Of a stretch of 64,000 nt of DNA, positions 7,885 through 16,292 are shown one piece after another. The position numbers and the translations under genes are program-made. Under the pieces are notes generated by a model that saw only the letters and a list, made by a program, of their open reading frames with translations, was not told where the DNA came from and searched no databases. Each line of letters starts with the position of its first letter. Within the stretch, counting starts at the first letter, position 1. This DNA comes from Cohaesibacter haloalkalitolerans (GTDB lineage Bacteria; Pseudomonadota; Alphaproteobacteria; Rhizobiales; Cohaesibacteraceae). Where the stretch lies: assembly GCF_003574655.1 (NCBI RefSeq), contig NZ_QNUM01000003.1, positions 248,001 to 312,000 on the forward strand, given 5' to 3'.

Positions 7885-10800
7885 CTAGGCTGCCCCCACC
7901 TCGACATCGACAACACCCGGGATTGCCTTCAGCGCGCGCCCGACTTCCGGCGAGACATAATATTTGCCCTTGAGCCGCATCTCGACCTCGCACTGGCCCT
8001 CGTCCAGCATCACGATGACCGAAACCTCGCCATCGCCGCGATCGTCAAGCTGCTTTTGCAGCGAAGACAGCGGCTTGGGATCATTGACAAACACCCGCAT
8101 GACCTTTTGCATGCCATCGCTTTCAAGCGGCCGCACGTTGTTGATGCGCACAGAAATGCCCTCCGGCCTTTCATCTGCCCCAACCTCAAGAATGACCGTC
8201 TTACCTGGCTCAAGCATATCGCGGAACCGCGCCAGTGCCTCGGAGAATAGCACCGCCTCATACTGCCCGGTCGGATCGGATACTGTGATAATGCCCATCC
8301 TGTTGCCGGTCTTGGTCTTGCGTTCCTGACGCGCCGTAATGGTCCCGGCTAGACGGCCTGCGCTCGCGCCCTGCTTGACGGCCAGCTCGAACGGTTGCCA
8401 TAGCTGGATTCGCATCTTCTCAAGCTGCGGCACATATTCATCGAGAGGATGCGCGGAAAGATAAAAGCCGATGGCGCTATATTCCCGCTGCAGCTTCTGC
8501 TCGCTGGTCCATGGTCGAACATCAGGCAACGGCAGCGGCGCCGCTTCCTGCTCACCAAACAGACCGCCCTGCCCGGAAGACGCATCGCGGGTATGGCTGG
8601 TGGCCTCGCCCATGATCACGTCGATGGAGGCAACAACCTGCGCCCGGTTCGGATTGAGCACATCAAAGGTGCCAGCGGCGGCCAGATTCTCGATCGTCCG
8701 CTTGTTGATCACGCGCGGGCTGATGCGCTTGGCGAAATCGGCCAGATCCTTGAACGGCTTGTCGCCGCGCACGTCCATGATGTGTTCGGCGGCAGGCTGC
8801 CCGACACCCTTGATGGCGGCCATGGAATAGATGATCGATCCATCCTTGACCACAAACTCGACGCCGGATTCATTGATGGACGGCGGACGCACCTCGATAC
8901 CCAGGCGGATGGCGTCCCGGCGGAATTCCGAGAGTTTGTCCGTGTTGTTCATATCGAGCGTCATGATGGCGGCGAGAAATTCAACCGGATAATTGGCCTT
9001 CATATAGGCGGTCTGATAGGCCACCAGAGCATAAGCCGCCGCGTGTGACTTGTTAAAGCCATAGTCGGCGAACTTGGCAACGAGGTCATAGATCTCGGAA
9101 GCCTGCTCACGGGCAACGCCACGTTCCTCAGCACCATCGCAGAAGAACACCCGCTGCTTTTCCATCTCCTCGCGGATCTTCTTGCCCATCGCGCGGCGAA
9201 GCATGTCAGCCTGACCGAGGGTATAGCCGGAAAGGATCTGCGCGATCTGCATCACCTGTTCCTGGTAGATGATGATGCCGTAGGTTTCCTTGAGCACCGG
9301 CTCAAGCAGATCATGCATATAGTCCGGCTTTTCCTCGCCACGCTTTCGGGCGCAATAGACCGGAATGTTGGCCATTGGCCCCGGTCGATAGAGCGCCACG
9401 ATAGCGATGATGTCCTCGAACTGGTCAGGCTTCATGTCGAGCAGTGCCTTGCGCATGCCCATACTTTCAAGCTGGAACACACCGACGGTCTCGCCCTTGC
9501 AGAGAATCTCGTAGGATTTCGGATCGTCAATCGGGATCTCGGACAGATTGAGCTCAATCCCGCGCTGGGCCACGAACCGCACAGCGGTCTGCAGCACCGT
9601 AAGCGTCTTGAGGCCAAGGAAGTCAAACTTGACCAGACCTGTCTTTTCCACCCACTTCATGTTGAACTGGGTGACCGGCATGTCAGAGCGCGGGTCGCGG
9701 TACATCGGCACCAGCTTGTCGAGTGACCGGTCGCCGATCACCACACCAGCCGCGTGGGTCGAGGTATGACGATAAAGCCCCTCAAGCTTCAGCGAAATGG
9801 AAATGAGTCGATCAACGATTTCCTCTTCCTTGCGCGCCTCGACAAGACGGGGCTCCTGCTCCAGCGCCTCGGGTAGCGACACGGAAACCGCTCCCTTCAT
9901 TGGCACCAGCTTGCACAGCTTGTCGACCTGACCGAACGGCATCTGCAAGACGCGCCCCACGTCGCGCAGCACCATTCGGGCCTGCAGCGTACCATAGGTG
10001 ATGATCTGCCCCACATTGCTCCAGCCATATTTGCGCTGAACATAATGCACCACTTCTTCACGCCGGTCCTGACAGAAGTCGATATCGAAGTCGGGCATCG
10101 ACACGCGTTCCGGATTGAGGAAACGTTCGAACAGCAGGGCAAAGCGCAAGGGATCAAGGTCGGTAATGGTCAGCGACCAGGCCACCAGCGACCCCGCACC
10201 GGAGCCACGGCCCGGCCCGACAGGGATGCCATGTTCCTTGGCCCACTTGATGAAGTCGGCAACGATGAGGAAGTAGCCGGGAAACTTCATCGAAACGATG
10301 ATGCCGAGCTCAAACTCGAGTCGCTCCCAATAGGATTCCTCGGTCAACCCGGGAGCCAGCCCGTGCACATCAAGGCGCTTGCGCAGACCTTCCTCGGCCT
10401 GTTTACGCAGCTCGGCAGCCTCATGGCGCTCGGCTTCCTCCGGATCGGCGTCAGCACCGGCAAACCGCGGCAGGAGCGGTTTGACCGTGCGCACGCGCGT
10501 TGAACAACGGCGGGCAATCTCGATTGTATTTTCAAGCGCCTCAGGAAGATCCGAGAACAGCTCGACCATCTCTTCCTGCGATTTCAGATAATAGTCGCGG
10601 GTCAGCTGCCGCCGGTCACTTTGAATGAGAACCTTGCTCTCGGCGATGGCCAGCAGCGCATCATGGGCCTCGAAATCTTCCTTCTCACTGAAATAGACGT
10701 CATTCGTAGCGACCAGAGGAATGTCCATCTCATAAGCGAGATCTATGATCAGCGGCTCCACCGCAACCTCTGAAGCCATGCCCTGACGCATGATCTCGAC

Positions 10801-11331
10801 ATAGAGGCGGTCGCCAAAAATGGTCTTGAGTGCAGCCAGACGGTCCCTCGCCTTTGGCGCATGATTGCTCGCCAGCATTCGGTCAACAGGACCGTTGCTG
10901 CCGCCAGTCAGACAAATGATCCCTGCTCCCAACTCCTCAAGGTCTGAAATACTGACATGCGGCTCCCGATCGTCTTCCGGCGCGAGATAGGAGCGGGACA
11001 CCAGAAGCTTCATGTTTGCCCAACCCTCGTCGGTCGCCGCCAACAACACGAGCGACGGCAACTGCGTATGACCCGCCCCCTGAAAATCGCCGTCCTGGCA
11101 GTTGAGTTCTACCTGACAGGCCATGATCGGCTGAATGCCCTCAGAAACAGCCTTTTCCGAGAATTCGAGCGCCCCGAACATGTTGCGCGTATCGGTGATT
11201 GCCACCGCAGGCATATGGAGGCTTTTGGTCTTCTTGATGATCTTGGCAACGGGCATCGCTCCCTCCAGCAAGGAGTAAGCCGAGTGCACATGCAGATGAA
11301 TGAATTTCAGAGTGTCAGACAGTCCATCCAT
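7885..11331 (-). CDS. dnaE: DNA polymerase III alpha subunit (replicative polymerase)
   Basis: The chromosomal replicase catalytic subunit, 1148 residues, normal for DnaE1. Visible parts in order: PHP domain (FIHLHVHSAYSLLEGAM at residues about 9-25), palm/catalytic core (GPGRGSGAGSLVAWSL near 390; PDFDIDFCQDRREEV near 420 with the paired Asp of the metal site; PMFKY-equivalent YGFNKSHAAAYA near 770), the helix-hairpin-helix region, and an OB-fold nucleic-acid domain near 1000-1080 (AGTITARQERKTKTGNRMG). The ATG at 11329-11331 is used; a TTG three codons upstream also opens the frame. It lies at the end of a long minus-strand cluster starting at birA. Confidence 0.97.
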   Translation of the reverse strand: MDGLSDTLKFIHLHVHSAYSLLEGAMPVAKIIKKTKSLHMPAVAITDTRNMFGALEFSEKAVSEGIQPIMACQVELNCQDGDFQGAGHTQLPSLVLLAATDEGWANMKLLVSRSYLAPEDDREPHVSISDLEELGAGIICLTGGSNGPVDRMLASNHAPKARDRLAALKTIFGDRLYVEIMRQGMASEVAVEPLIIDLAYEMDIPLVATNDVYFSEKEDFEAHDALLAIAESKVLIQSDRRQLTRDYYLKSQEEMVELFSDLPEALENTIEIARRCSTRVRTVKPLLPRFAGADADPEEAERHEAAELRKQAEEGLRKRLDVHGLAPGLTEESYWERLEFELGIIVSMKFPGYFLIVADFIKWAKEHGIPVGPGRGSGAGSLVAWSLTITDLDPLRFALLFERFLNPERVSMPDFDIDFCQDRREEVVHYVQRKYGWSNVGQIITYGTLQARMVLRDVGRVLQMPFGQVDKLCKLVPMKGAVSVSLPEALEQEPRLVEARKEEEIVDRLISISLKLEGLYRHTSTHAAGVVIGDRSLDKLVPMYRDPRSDMPVTQFNMKWVEKTGLVKFDFLGLKTLTVLQTAVRFVAQRGIELNLSEIPIDDPKSYEILCKGETVGVFQLESMGMRKALLDMKPDQFEDIIAIVALYRPGPMANIPVYCARKRGEEKPDYMHDLLEPVLKETYGIIIYQEQVMQIAQILSGYTLGQADMLRRAMGKKIREEMEKQRVFFCDGAEERGVAREQASEIYDLVAKFADYGFNKSHAAAYALVAYQTAYMKANYPVEFLAAIMTLDMNNTDKLSEFRRDAIRLGIEVRPPSINESGVEFVVKDGSIIYSMAAIKGVGQPAAEHIMDVRGDKPFKDLADFAKRISPRVINKRTIENLAAAGTFDVLNPNRAQVVASIDVIMGEATSHTRDASSGQGGLFGEQEAAPLPLPDVRPWTSEQKLQREYSAIGFYLSAHPLDEYVPQLEKMRIQLWQPFELAVKQGASAGRLAGTITARQERKTKTGNRMGIITVSDPTGQYEAVLFSEALARFRDMLEPGKTVILEVGADERPEGISVRINNVRPLESDGMQKVMRVFVNDPKPLSSLQKQLDDRGDGEVSVIVMLDEGQCEVEMRLKGKYYVSPEVGRALKAIPGVVDVEVGAA

Positions 11332-11564
11332 GGAACACAAGCCTTCCCGTCAAATCTCGCAAGAACAGATACCAAAGCGCGAGAATCATATCGCACAGGA
11401 TCACGAGAATAGAAAAGGTCACCGAGAATGGCAAAGCCCGACCGGCCGCTTTTTGACATTTGACCCAACAGGCCGAAGACCGGCAGAAGCCGCCGCACAA
11501 AACCGGGAATATGTAAAACCCCCGATCTTATCTTTGTTCACAATAGTGGGATCACCTGGCCCGA

Positions 11565-11648
11565 TTACACCAGAACCTGCATCCACACACCAATCATGGA
11601 CATGAAGGTAATCAGGGAGCCAAGCGCAAGAACATCACGAATAATCAT
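11565..11648 (-). CDS. 27-residue single-helix membrane protein behind a LexA-like promoter (SidA-like candidate)
   Basis: A complete tiny ORF with strong signals. The ATG at 11646-11648 is preceded by a GAGG Shine-Dalgarno sequence (11656-11659) with a 7-base gap, and the ORF ends with TAA at 11565-11567. The product begins MIIRDVLALGSLITF and is one hydrophobic helix with charged residues only at positions 4-5. Its promoter (11683-11711) has a GAAC-N7-ATAC LexA-type site in the spacer. SidA of Caulobacter crescentus is a LexA-controlled inner-membrane peptide of 29 residues that blocks division through FtsW. Size, single helix and SOS-like control agree with that design, but I cannot check sequence homology here. 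The coding call is good; the SidA-type role is a hypothesis. Confidence 0.62.
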   Translation of the reverse strand: MIIRDVLALGSLITFMSMIGVWMQVLV

Positions 11649-11682
11649 AACCAGACCTCAAATTTGTTCGCGTTATAAACTC

Positions 11683-11711
11683 ATTATGTATTTGTTTTGT
11701 TCTCATTGCAA
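11683..11711 (-). promoter_or_regulatory. Promoter of the 27-residue membrane protein with embedded LexA-like operator
   Basis: On the minus strand: -35 TTGCAA (11706-11711), 17-base spacer, -10 CATAAT (11683-11688). The alphaproteobacterial LexA operator is a direct repeat GTTC-N7-GTTC (GAAC-N7-GAAC on the other strand). Bases 11688-11702 read GAAC-AAAACAA-ATAC on the coding strand, one perfect half and one degenerate half, lying inside the spacer where a repressor would block polymerase. Confidence 0.55.
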
Positions 11712-11774: not shown

Positions 11775-11789
11775 GTTCTCTTTTTATTC
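11775..11789 (+). promoter_or_regulatory. Second LexA-like site, GTTC-N7-ATTC
   Basis: Bases 11775-11778 are GTTC and 11786-11789 ATTC, separated by exactly seven T/C-rich bases: seven of eight conserved positions of the alphaproteobacterial SOS box. It lies about 65 bases upstream of the -35 of the 27-residue membrane protein gene, on the same stretch of intergenic DNA. Confidence 0.45.
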
Positions 11790-12121: not shown

Positions 12122-13117
12122 TCAAAGATCGACGATCTTGCCGTCAACCAGCGTGATCTGGCGATCCATGCGTTCTGCCAGAAACAGATTGTGAGTGGCA
12201 ACCAGCGCAGCGATTCCGGACTGCTTGACCAGAGCATTGAGCGCCTTGAAAACATATTCCGAGGTATTCGGATCAAGGTTGCCGGTCGGCTCGTCAGCCA
12301 ATAGCACACGGGGCGCATTGGCCATGGCGCGAGCTATTGCAACGCGCTGCTTCTCGCCACCGGAAAGCTCGCTTGGCCGATGGTCAGAACGGTGATCGAT
12401 CTTCATGTAAGCCAGCAGCTCCTTTGCCCGGACCTCGGCTTCCTTGCGATTCTCACCTCGAATGAGCTGTGGCAGCATGACATTTTCGAGTGCCGAGAAT
12501 TCCGCCAGCAGATGATGGAACTGATAGACAAAGCCGATCTCGTTGCGGCGCATCAGCGTGCGCGCCCGATCGACAGCCTGACTTTGCGCAACCTGCGCGA
12601 TATAGACCTCCCCCGAAGTCGGACGCTCCAGCAGGCCGGCAATATGCAGCAAGGTGGACTTGCCCGCGCCGGATGGCGCAACCAGCGCCACCATTTCACC
12701 GGCCCGAACCACCAGATTCGCACCATTCAGAACGACCAGATCTTCCTCGGCCTGTTCATAGGATCGGTGAATATTGTCGAGCACCAGCAGCGGCTCGTTA
12801 AGTTCAGTATCACCAAATCCTGAACCTTTGTCCGCAGCGCCGGAAACACTTCCCCCGGAGCCGAATGACGCCGGATACTCCGTCACAGCCGCATCAGCAG
12901 CAACTCCGGTACCGTCGTCGCTGGCCGGATAGGAAGTTGGCATGACGGGGATGCTCGAGGTCAACTCGACAAAATTGCCGGATGCTTCATAGGAGCTGGC
13001 AGACGATGCGCCACCGCTGGCAACTTGCGCCGGAGCGGCCTTCGGTTCCTTGGCCCTCGCTGCCTTGCGCTTTTCTTCATCGCTCAGGATCGGCCAGAAA
13101 AAGCTTTTCTTATTCAT
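12122..13117 (-). CDS. lolD: Lipoprotein-releasing ABC transporter ATPase LolD with long N-terminal extension
   Basis: ATPase of the LolCDE-type complex that extracts lipoproteins from the inner membrane for delivery to LolA. The ABC core starts near residue 108: Walker [10 protein letters not shown] (147-155, with Ala in place of the usual first Gly), Q-loop [12 protein letters not shown], signature [14 protein letters not shown], Walker [13 protein letters not shown] and the H-loop His in VATHN. The start at 13115-13117 ([16 protein letters not shown]) overlaps the end of lolC by eight bases, so translation is probably coupled. At 331 residues it is about 100 longer than usual LolD; the extra N-terminal part is Ser/Ala/Gly-rich and looks disordered. 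Confidence 0.9.
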
Positions 13118-14378
13118 ACCGAAGAGCCTCCACCGGATCGAGACGCGCTGCACGCCACGCAGGATAGAGCGTGGCAAGGAAAGACAGAACCAGCGAAATC
13201 GCCAGTACGGAGATTGTTTCTGAGGCATTCATGTCCGCAGGAAGCTTGGAGAGGAAATAGAGTTCAGGCGAAAACAGCTCGGTCCGCGTAATCCAGGAAA
13301 CAAACTGTCGGATTGACTCGATATTGAGACACACCACCAGCCCCAAAAAGAATCCGGCAAAGGTGCCGACAAACCCGATGGCCGCCCCGGTAATCATGAA
13401 AATCCGCATGATCGAAGCGCGGGTTGCGCCCATGGTCCGGAGAATGGCGATGTCGCTGCCCTTGTCCTTGACCAGCATGATGAGACCGGAAATGATGTTC
13501 AGCGCCGCCACCAGAATGATCAGTGTGAGGATGATGAACATCAGGTTGCGCTCGACCTCAAGCGCAGAGAAGAAGGTGACATTTCGATAGCGCCAGTCGG
13601 TCATGAAGATCTGCTGACCGATCGCCTCCTCGACAGCCGGGCGCAATTCACCCACCCTGTCCGGGTCATCGAGATAGACCTCGATGGCAGAAACCTTGCC
13701 ATCCTGATTGAAATAGGCCTGTGCGGCCGACAACGGCATGAAGATGAAGGTGCTGTCATATTCGCTCATGCCGATCTCGAAGATCGCCTTGACCGGATAG
13801 GACTTGATACGTGGCGCGACCCCCATCGGCGTCACCGCCCCTTTGGGCGAGATCAGCGTGACGCGATCCCCGGCGATCACACCGAGCGAACGGGCAAGGC
13901 GGGAACCAAGTGCTACCCCTTCGGATTCGTCAAAGCCTTCGAATGTGCCCTGAAGAACATTGCTGGAAACCAGCTTGAGCTTGTCGATGCTTTCCTTCGA
14001 CATGCCACGCACAAGCGCACCAACCGAACCGCCCGCTCCGGATGCAAGGATCTGTCCTTCGACAAAGGGAATGGCAAAGCTGACGCCATTGACACCGTCA
14101 ACGCGTTTGACGATGCCGTCATAGTCCGTCAGTTCCTTGTCCATCGGCTGGACGACCAGATGGCCGTTGATGCCGAGAATCTTGTCCAGCAGTTCGGAGC
14201 GGAAGCCATTCATCACGGCCATGACGATGATGAGCGTTGCAACGCCCAACATGATTCCGAAAAAGGAAAGCCAGGAAATGACGGAAACGAAGGCATCCCG
14301 TCTACGGGACCGCAAATAACGGAACGCCATCATCCATTCAAACAGAGCAAACGGCGATTGGACCTTTGGCGCGGACAT
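13110..14378 (-). CDS. lolC: Lipoprotein-releasing ABC transporter permease (LolC/LolE family)
   Basis: Inner-membrane permease of 422 residues. It has the family layout: an N-terminal [27 protein letters not shown] segment leading into the first transmembrane helix (about 25-50), a periplasmic domain of about 200 residues, then three helices near 275-420 ending in [28 protein letters not shown], the FtsX-type C-terminal signature. Only one permease gene is present next to lolD, as is usual in alphaproteobacteria, so the complex is probably a homodimer (inference). It lies 70 bases after proS on the same strand. Confidence 0.93.
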
Positions 14379-16087: not shown

Positions 16088-16292
16088 TTGGGATTAATGT
16101 CCCTGCATAATGATAAGAGATACGCTCACCACCGTTATCTCACTTCGCGCAGTAATGTCTTGGGAGGATACATATCTCGGGCGCGCTTTTTAGCCGCAGC
16201 CGTTCAGCATCAGCAAAACCACAAATGCAAGCTGAATTATGAGATCACGACGCGATCACTTAAAAAACAAGGCTTCGGCCTTGTTTTTTTTT
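16088..16292 (+). ncRNA. Candidate small RNA of about 200 bases
   Basis: The plus strand shows two short stem-loops, GGGA-TTAATG-TCCC (16090-16103) and GAGATA...TATCTC (16117-16141), and ends in a textbook intrinsic terminator at 16266-16292. No plus-strand protein gene lies upstream (proS is on the other strand), so the terminator implies a short transcript. An open frame crosses the terminator and is therefore unlikely to be translated. I found no good promoter: a TTGCTT at about 16053 lacks a clear -10. No known RNA family recognised. Confidence 0.35.
16266..16292 (+). terminator. Intrinsic terminator with cUUCGg loop
   Basis: Stem AACAAGGC (16266-16273), loop TTCG, stem GCCTTGTT (16278-16285), followed by T's to 16292. 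The C(UUCG)G tetraloop is exceptionally stable. The A-run on the 5' side means the opposite strand also carries six T's after the stem, so it could additionally stop minus-strand transcripts. Confidence 0.82.

Follow-up and report, generated by a model that had tools for sequence, protein, structure and literature searches.

The stretch analyzed here is 64,000 nucleotides of the Cohaesibacter haloalkalitolerans genome (contig NZ_QNUM01000003.1, positions 248,001 to 312,000; hereafter the window), part of a 5.0-Mb genome. On its minus strand, directly upstream of dnaE, lies a 27-codon open reading frame (ORF) whose product is probably, at a probability of roughly 0.7, an SOS division inhibitor of the SidA type, encoded at a conserved place before dnaE and expected by analogy to arrest division. 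SidA of Caulobacter is a 29-residue, SOS-induced inner-membrane division inhibitor that acts on FtsW (PMC4211646). The first-pass annotation had proposed such a counterpart from the letters of the window, and the elements that it described between dnaE and the upstream gene lolD, namely a minus-strand frame of 28 codons including the stop, a GAGG at good spacing and a promoter of the form TTGCAA-N17-CATAAT, were all recovered at the following positions:

11565..11648, minus strand: ORF, ATG to TAA, 27 codons plus stop, encoding the SidA-like peptide MIIRDVLALGSLITFMSMIGVWMQVLV, a predicted single helix
11656..11659, minus strand: ribosome-binding site GAGG, read from the sequence, with a 7-nt spacer to the ATG
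11683..11711, minus strand: sigma-70-like promoter TTGCAA-N17-CATAAT, found by promoter scan
11688..11702, minus strand: LexA-like site GAACAAAACAAATAC between the -35 and -10 elements, matching 6 of 8 positions of GAAC-N7-GAAC
11775..11789, minus strand: second LexA-like site GAATAAAAAGAGAAC (GAAT-N7-GAAC), matching 7 of 8 positions, 141 nt upstream of the ATG

The ORF is a real gene. A tblastn search of 101 genomes, that of the window included, recovered the peptide in all 17 other members of the genus (E 1.9e-8 or better), with weaker matches in two other genera of the family (E 9.8e-5 and 0.047). Over all pairs of the 18 species, the proportions of synonymous (pS) and nonsynonymous (pN) differences were 0.53 and 0.079, a ratio (pN/pS) of 0.147 that indicates purifying selection. 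Upstream of the ORF, the motif GAACAAAA[C/T]NNATACATAAT was invariant in 18 of 18 genus promoters and in locus L030 from another genus (g3), while the positions NN varied, and TTG...ATACATAAT was likewise invariant in all 18 members and in L030. Because the peptide, the low pN/pS and the promoter motif recur in this way throughout the genus, the observation stands above chance. The promoter would be weak evidence by itself, as a stretch of about 900 bases contained two such sites where 0.9 would be expected. At 27 residues the product is close to SidA in size (about 29 residues, a single hydrophobic helix); it is hydrophobic by composition and would be expected to insert into the membrane. No Pfam, NCBIfam or PADLOC family matched the window peptide, and none of the Rfam matches within the window overlapped the ORF.

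Judged by its sequence, the peptide is a member of a so far unnamed family of short, putatively single-helix peptides that extends through the order. Of the 397 order genomes, 291 contained matches (E up to 1) to a profile built from 17 sequences, with chance matches among the weaker ones. A profile score of 24 or more defined 100 distinct fetched loci, and 60 loci were taken from among the best places listed by the order-profile search; four tblastn matches (L035, L037, L038, and L052) were apparently false and were discarded. In 89 of the 100 loci dnaE lay downstream on the same strand, with 5–422 nt (median 166) between the stop codon of the peptide and dnaE, and in 69 a perfect LexA box preceded the match by 15–110 nt, though never in this genus. 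The 31 loci lacking a perfect box were made up of 17 from the genus, L030, the five prophage-like copies (L039–L043) and another eight (L128, L132, L137, L139, L150, L153, L154, and L159). Eleven loci lacked dnaE in the fetched region: L039–L043, L141, three in which dnaE was on the same contig 0.6–1.6 kb beyond the fetched flank (L122, L139, and L151), and two in which it was on another contig of the genome (L152, which keeps a perfect box, and L156). At L156 (genome G087), two perfect boxes overlapped as GAAC-N7-GAAC-N7-GAAC, and the box was absent before the dnaE of that genome (L409). Members of family f36 (L036, L092–L096, L100, L101, and L104–L107) carried two oppositely oriented perfect boxes separated by 18 nt before the peptide, an arrangement that suggests tighter repression.

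Within a 40-sequence alignment of the family, F15 and W22 were present in all 40 peptides, every one of which also had an acidic residue (D or E) at position 5, and 39 had A or S at position 8; W22 was absent from some peptides found later by surveying dnaE upstreams, e.g., L398 and L411. The residues D5, A8, S11, L12, F15, and W22 share one face of the helix (20–140 degrees), and such one-sided conservation suggests a specific protein partner.

The association of box, peptide and dnaE was recovered in a survey made independently of the peptide, in which dnaE was located by its N-terminus and up to about 450 nt before it were scanned, stopping at a nearer lolD. Within the order, a perfect box was found in 31 of 72 dnaE upstreams, 28 of them with a hydrophobic micro-ORF behind it, compared with 0–3 for eleven permuted motifs. 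Among upstreams from the remaining orders of the class, 14 of 85 had the box (11 with a micro-ORF; permuted motifs 0–1), as did 16 of 27 from a Caulobacter-Phenylobacterium set, all 16 with a micro-ORF (permuted motifs 0–2). These samples were not random. The order sample consisted of the window locus, four loci from the class search, 27 among the best dnaE matches and 40 picked by hand, and because the latter were taken from genomes without a fetched family locus, the sample is biased against the peptide; the locus of the window and that of another genus member were counted as lacking the box. The class sample comprised 29 among the top matches and a further 60 hand-picked from the matches listed, with fuller genomes preferred, minus four members of the order, and was drawn from 338 of 385 genomes with a dnaE match. 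For the third set, 28 genomes were chosen among 80 PopZ loci, one being labelled only Proteobacteria, and 27 gave dnaE.

The Caulobacter member at this place is SidA. In Caulobacter, sidA is CCNA_02004 (PMC10769358) and dnaE is CC1926 (PMC1839093), and a whole-genome search found SidA in C. vibrioides OR37 and C. segnis FS, in both of them directly before dnaE. An ORF of 29–30 residues stood directly before dnaE in 25 of the 27 upstreams of the Caulobacter-Phenylobacterium set, and no such ORF was found in the other two. The three of these ORFs that were submitted matched NF033228 (div_inhib_SidA) at 67–73 bits, above its cut-off of 35. Perfect boxes preceded 16 of the 25, and the remaining nine had two 7-of-8 boxes each, whereas the box of the window is degenerate. 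Aligned with hhalign, the order family and SidA gave P 2.7e-5, a probability of 74.5% and a score of 21.9 over 23 columns; 300 column shuffles averaged 8.6 and reached 18.2 at most, so that none attained the observed score. The SidA model scored 9.3 bits on the window peptide, a value reached by none of 200 shuffles, and in the reverse direction the order model scored 7.5–15.6 bits on 16 SidA-type peptides (0–8 of 200 shuffles as high). For 8 of 11 peptides from the rest of the class, 10 or fewer of 200 shuffles scored as high with the order model. Peptide L211, from another class family, scored 13.1 and 18.5 bits with the two models, with 0 of 200 shuffles as high in each case. Homology outside the order is argued from the place before dnaE and from these shuffle tests, because the order profile, when searched against the whole class, returned mostly chance-level matches there. 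The window gene thus resembles SidA in lying directly before dnaE and in encoding one hydrophobic helix of 27–30 residues, with the pattern R-D/E-x-L-A-L-x-S-x-x-x-F in common and 30–37% identity (alignment A4). The notion that SidA was an unrelated analogue was dropped after the place before dnaE, the column-shuffle result and the NF033228 matches had been established.

The position of the gene also allows a different reading, in which the ORF is a leader or upstream ORF (uORF) that tunes the translation or transcription of dnaE. The ORF does end shortly before a same-strand dnaE in the 89 loci noted above, and this reading has been offered for such small ORFs (sORFs) in Sinorhizobium meliloti, another alphaproteobacterium, in which ribosome profiling placed the novel sORF25, a possible uORF, directly before dnaE in the dnaE1 5′-untranslated region (PMC10117765). 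We nevertheless consider this explanation very unlikely, as the amino acid sequence itself is conserved beyond the mere presence of an ORF, homologues occur without an adjacent dnaE (the prophage-like L039–L043, as well as L152 and L156 with their one and two perfect boxes) and the Caulobacter member is SidA. The main text on sORF25 contains neither LexA nor SOS, SidA not having been among the terms sought (PMC10117765). By its place, sORF25 may belong to the same gene family, and the interpretation of the window peptide as a SidA-like inhibitor would suggest a role for those sORFs upstream of dnaE that have so far been read as uORFs.

As a SidA-like inhibitor, the peptide would be produced when DNA damage activates RecA and LexA is cleaved, freeing the TTGCAA-N17-CATAAT promoter, provided that LexA controls it. 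The 27-residue product would insert into the inner membrane as one helix and most likely bind the septal peptidoglycan polymerase FtsW through the D5-A8-S11-L12-F15-W22 face; FtsW/FtsI/FtsN would be kept inactive and septation delayed until repair, as is proposed by analogy with SidA. FtsW substitutions that suppress SidA are F145L and A246T (PMC4211646); at these two positions, the FtsW encoded by this genome carries F and A, respectively. In a 2026 paper, the SidA helix was predicted to pack on the seventh transmembrane segment of FtsW; YneA binds FtsW, and ChiZ, SosA, and SidA were predicted to do so, with models that were not high-confidence (PMC13396833). As a putative small SOS-induced division inhibitor with a membrane helix, the window peptide would resemble YneA, SosA, and ChiZ, although YneA and ChiZ, unlike the window peptide, have a LysM domain. 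In genome G099, FtsW (L458) has L at the place of Caulobacter F145, which is the SidA-resistance substitution, yet the peptide and a perfect LexA box are present.

LexA control combined with a single hydrophobic helix would also fit an SOS-induced peptide with another target, either a membrane-active peptide or a modulator of a different membrane protein. TisB is an SOS-induced membrane-active peptide, and DinQ is reportedly membrane-active as well. The place before dnaE and the profile similarity are shared with SidA, however, and the one-sided conserved face suggests a specific protein partner, which makes such a different target improbable.

The evidence for LexA control differs between this genus and its relatives. 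Upstream of lexA, the genome, which encodes LexA, has the perfect box GAACACAGCAAGAAC. The GAAC-N7-ATAC that had been pointed out in the promoter spacer is indeed present, matching 6 of 8 positions and being at chance level by itself, and the second, 7-of-8 box is present in a window where one-mismatch sites were as frequent as expected (51 against 51) and perfect sites were not found. Across the genome, GAAC-N7-ATAC was rarer than its reversed control (42 vs. 86), and so was GAAC-N7-GAAC (123 vs. 173). The LexA box alone was therefore rejected as evidence, being at chance level in the window and showing no genome-wide enrichment. Sites with no more than one mismatch were present in 16 of 18 upstreams of the genus, as against 0–6 for eleven permuted motifs, the 18 being related and not independent. 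Ten of the 18 had GAAT-N7-GAAC at position -141 or -142, and two others had a perfect box, at -153. At the place of the promoter box itself, a perfect box was found in the sister genus g2 (L027) and at the corresponding place in many other families, while g3 (L030) had the same degenerate box.

It is conceivable, and in our judgment rather unlikely, that the gene left the SOS regulon in this genus, so that the promoter box now serves another regulator or the promoter core and the peptide answers a different stress. The replacement of GAAC by ATAC in all 18 species as well as g3, the strict retention of ATACATAAT and the perfect box before lexA itself would be explained in this way. Against it, the other half-site and the spacer AAAA are kept while NN varies, sites with at most one mismatch persist in most upstreams of the genus, and the nine SidA ORF promoters without a perfect box likewise carry only 7-of-8 boxes. 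Because the promoter box is degenerate, LexA control of the gene in this genus is only inferred, though likely. Most family loci fetched outside the genus carry perfect boxes, which supports the SidA proposal of the first-pass annotation.

Several observations weigh against a SidA-like inhibitor. In all 18 species, one half-site of the promoter box is missing two of its four bases, although the lexA of the genome is preceded by a perfect box, and SOS control in the genus may be weak, altered or lost. No perfect box lay within the scanned stretch of 41 of the 72 order upstreams. More than 10 of 200 shuffles scored as high with the SidA model for 17 of 28 order peptides and for 9 of 11 survey peptides from the rest of the class. 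Unlike SidA itself, the window peptide falls below detection by the SidA model in the NCBIfam search, which returned no family at E up to 10; NF033228 had no match in genome G000 at E up to 10 and exceeded its 35-bit cut-off in both named Caulobacter genomes but in 0 of the 38 genomes other than these two. SidA has nothing that corresponds to W22, a residue invariant in the 40 aligned order peptides, and the profile alignment extends over 23 columns. In nine genomes, FtsW had F at the place of F145 in eight and L in one, and A at the place of A246 in six and S in three. Finally, lolD was missing in at least 11 loci with about 1.5 kb of fetched upstream flank. The proposal of a SidA counterpart is partly supported: its place before dnaE, the perfect boxes of its relatives and the profile similarity favour it, NF033228 does not reach the peptide and the box of the genus is degenerate.

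The locus family may have a wider history. We consider it somewhat more probable than the opposite that SidA, far from being peculiar to Caulobacter, is the most familiar offshoot of an ancient SOS checkpoint gene of alphaproteobacteria, fixed in its position before dnaE, of which prophages captured LexA-free copies to arrest host division; annotation would then miss the gene elsewhere because it is very short and fast-evolving. In the literature searched, subscription papers being outside its scope, neither an extension of SidA beyond Caulobacter nor a named SOS division inhibitor for this group was found. Of the 52 order families that were met, at least 27 (hand tally) have in this locus a concrete candidate for an SOS division inhibitor, and the gene offers a deletion target. 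The naturally varying helices of the peptide family could also serve to map the way in which some 30 residues might inhibit FtsW.

Paralogues without a perfect LexA box upstream were found at L039–L044, and weaker ones at L047 (position C24:64620 of the same genome as the window) and L048; identity to the peptide was 38–81%. Seven neighbours of the copies at L039, L041, L042, L043, and L047 were searched against PHROGs, and the matches were to single-stranded DNA-binding, repressor-like regulator, Erf-like annealing, RusA-like and excisionase-/helix-turn-helix-like proteins; of the two remaining neighbours, one matched an entry of unknown function and one had no match. These LexA-free copies, carried by prophage-like loci within the genus, are possible phage-borne division inhibitors. 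The only two prophage-type peptide copies submitted had no match in PHROGs, and tblastn gave no match in phage records with a prophage-type copy as query or in plasmid records with the window peptide, a weak test at 27 residues. The peptide pattern was seen in an IMG/VR viral contig of 41,685 bases, and the contig of L042 is also 41,685 bases long.

The genes flanking the ORF in the window are as follows:

7885..11340, minus strand: dnaE, DNA polymerase III alpha subunit, downstream neighbour (NF004226, 1480 bits; candidate starts ATG 11331 and TTG 11340)
12122..13228, minus strand: lolD, upstream neighbour (TIGR02211, 256 bits over residues 148–366, below its cut-off)

A fixed lolD-peptide-dnaE order was rejected on recount, as 48 of the 100 loci had lolD upstream (38 by recount plus 10 genus loci). 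The constant neighbour is dnaE and not lolD, since lolD is missing from the upstream flanks counted above. In the Caulobacter-Phenylobacterium set, lolD was present in only 14 of 27 upstreams and mostly farther off, whereas in the window it is the immediate upstream neighbour. LolCE is also encoded nearby in the window. About 143 residues precede the LolD domain in the lolD ORF, either an N-terminal extension or the mark of a later true start. An Rfam match to the alphaproteobacterial small RNA ar9 lies at 16107–16292 on the plus strand of the window (56.5 bits).
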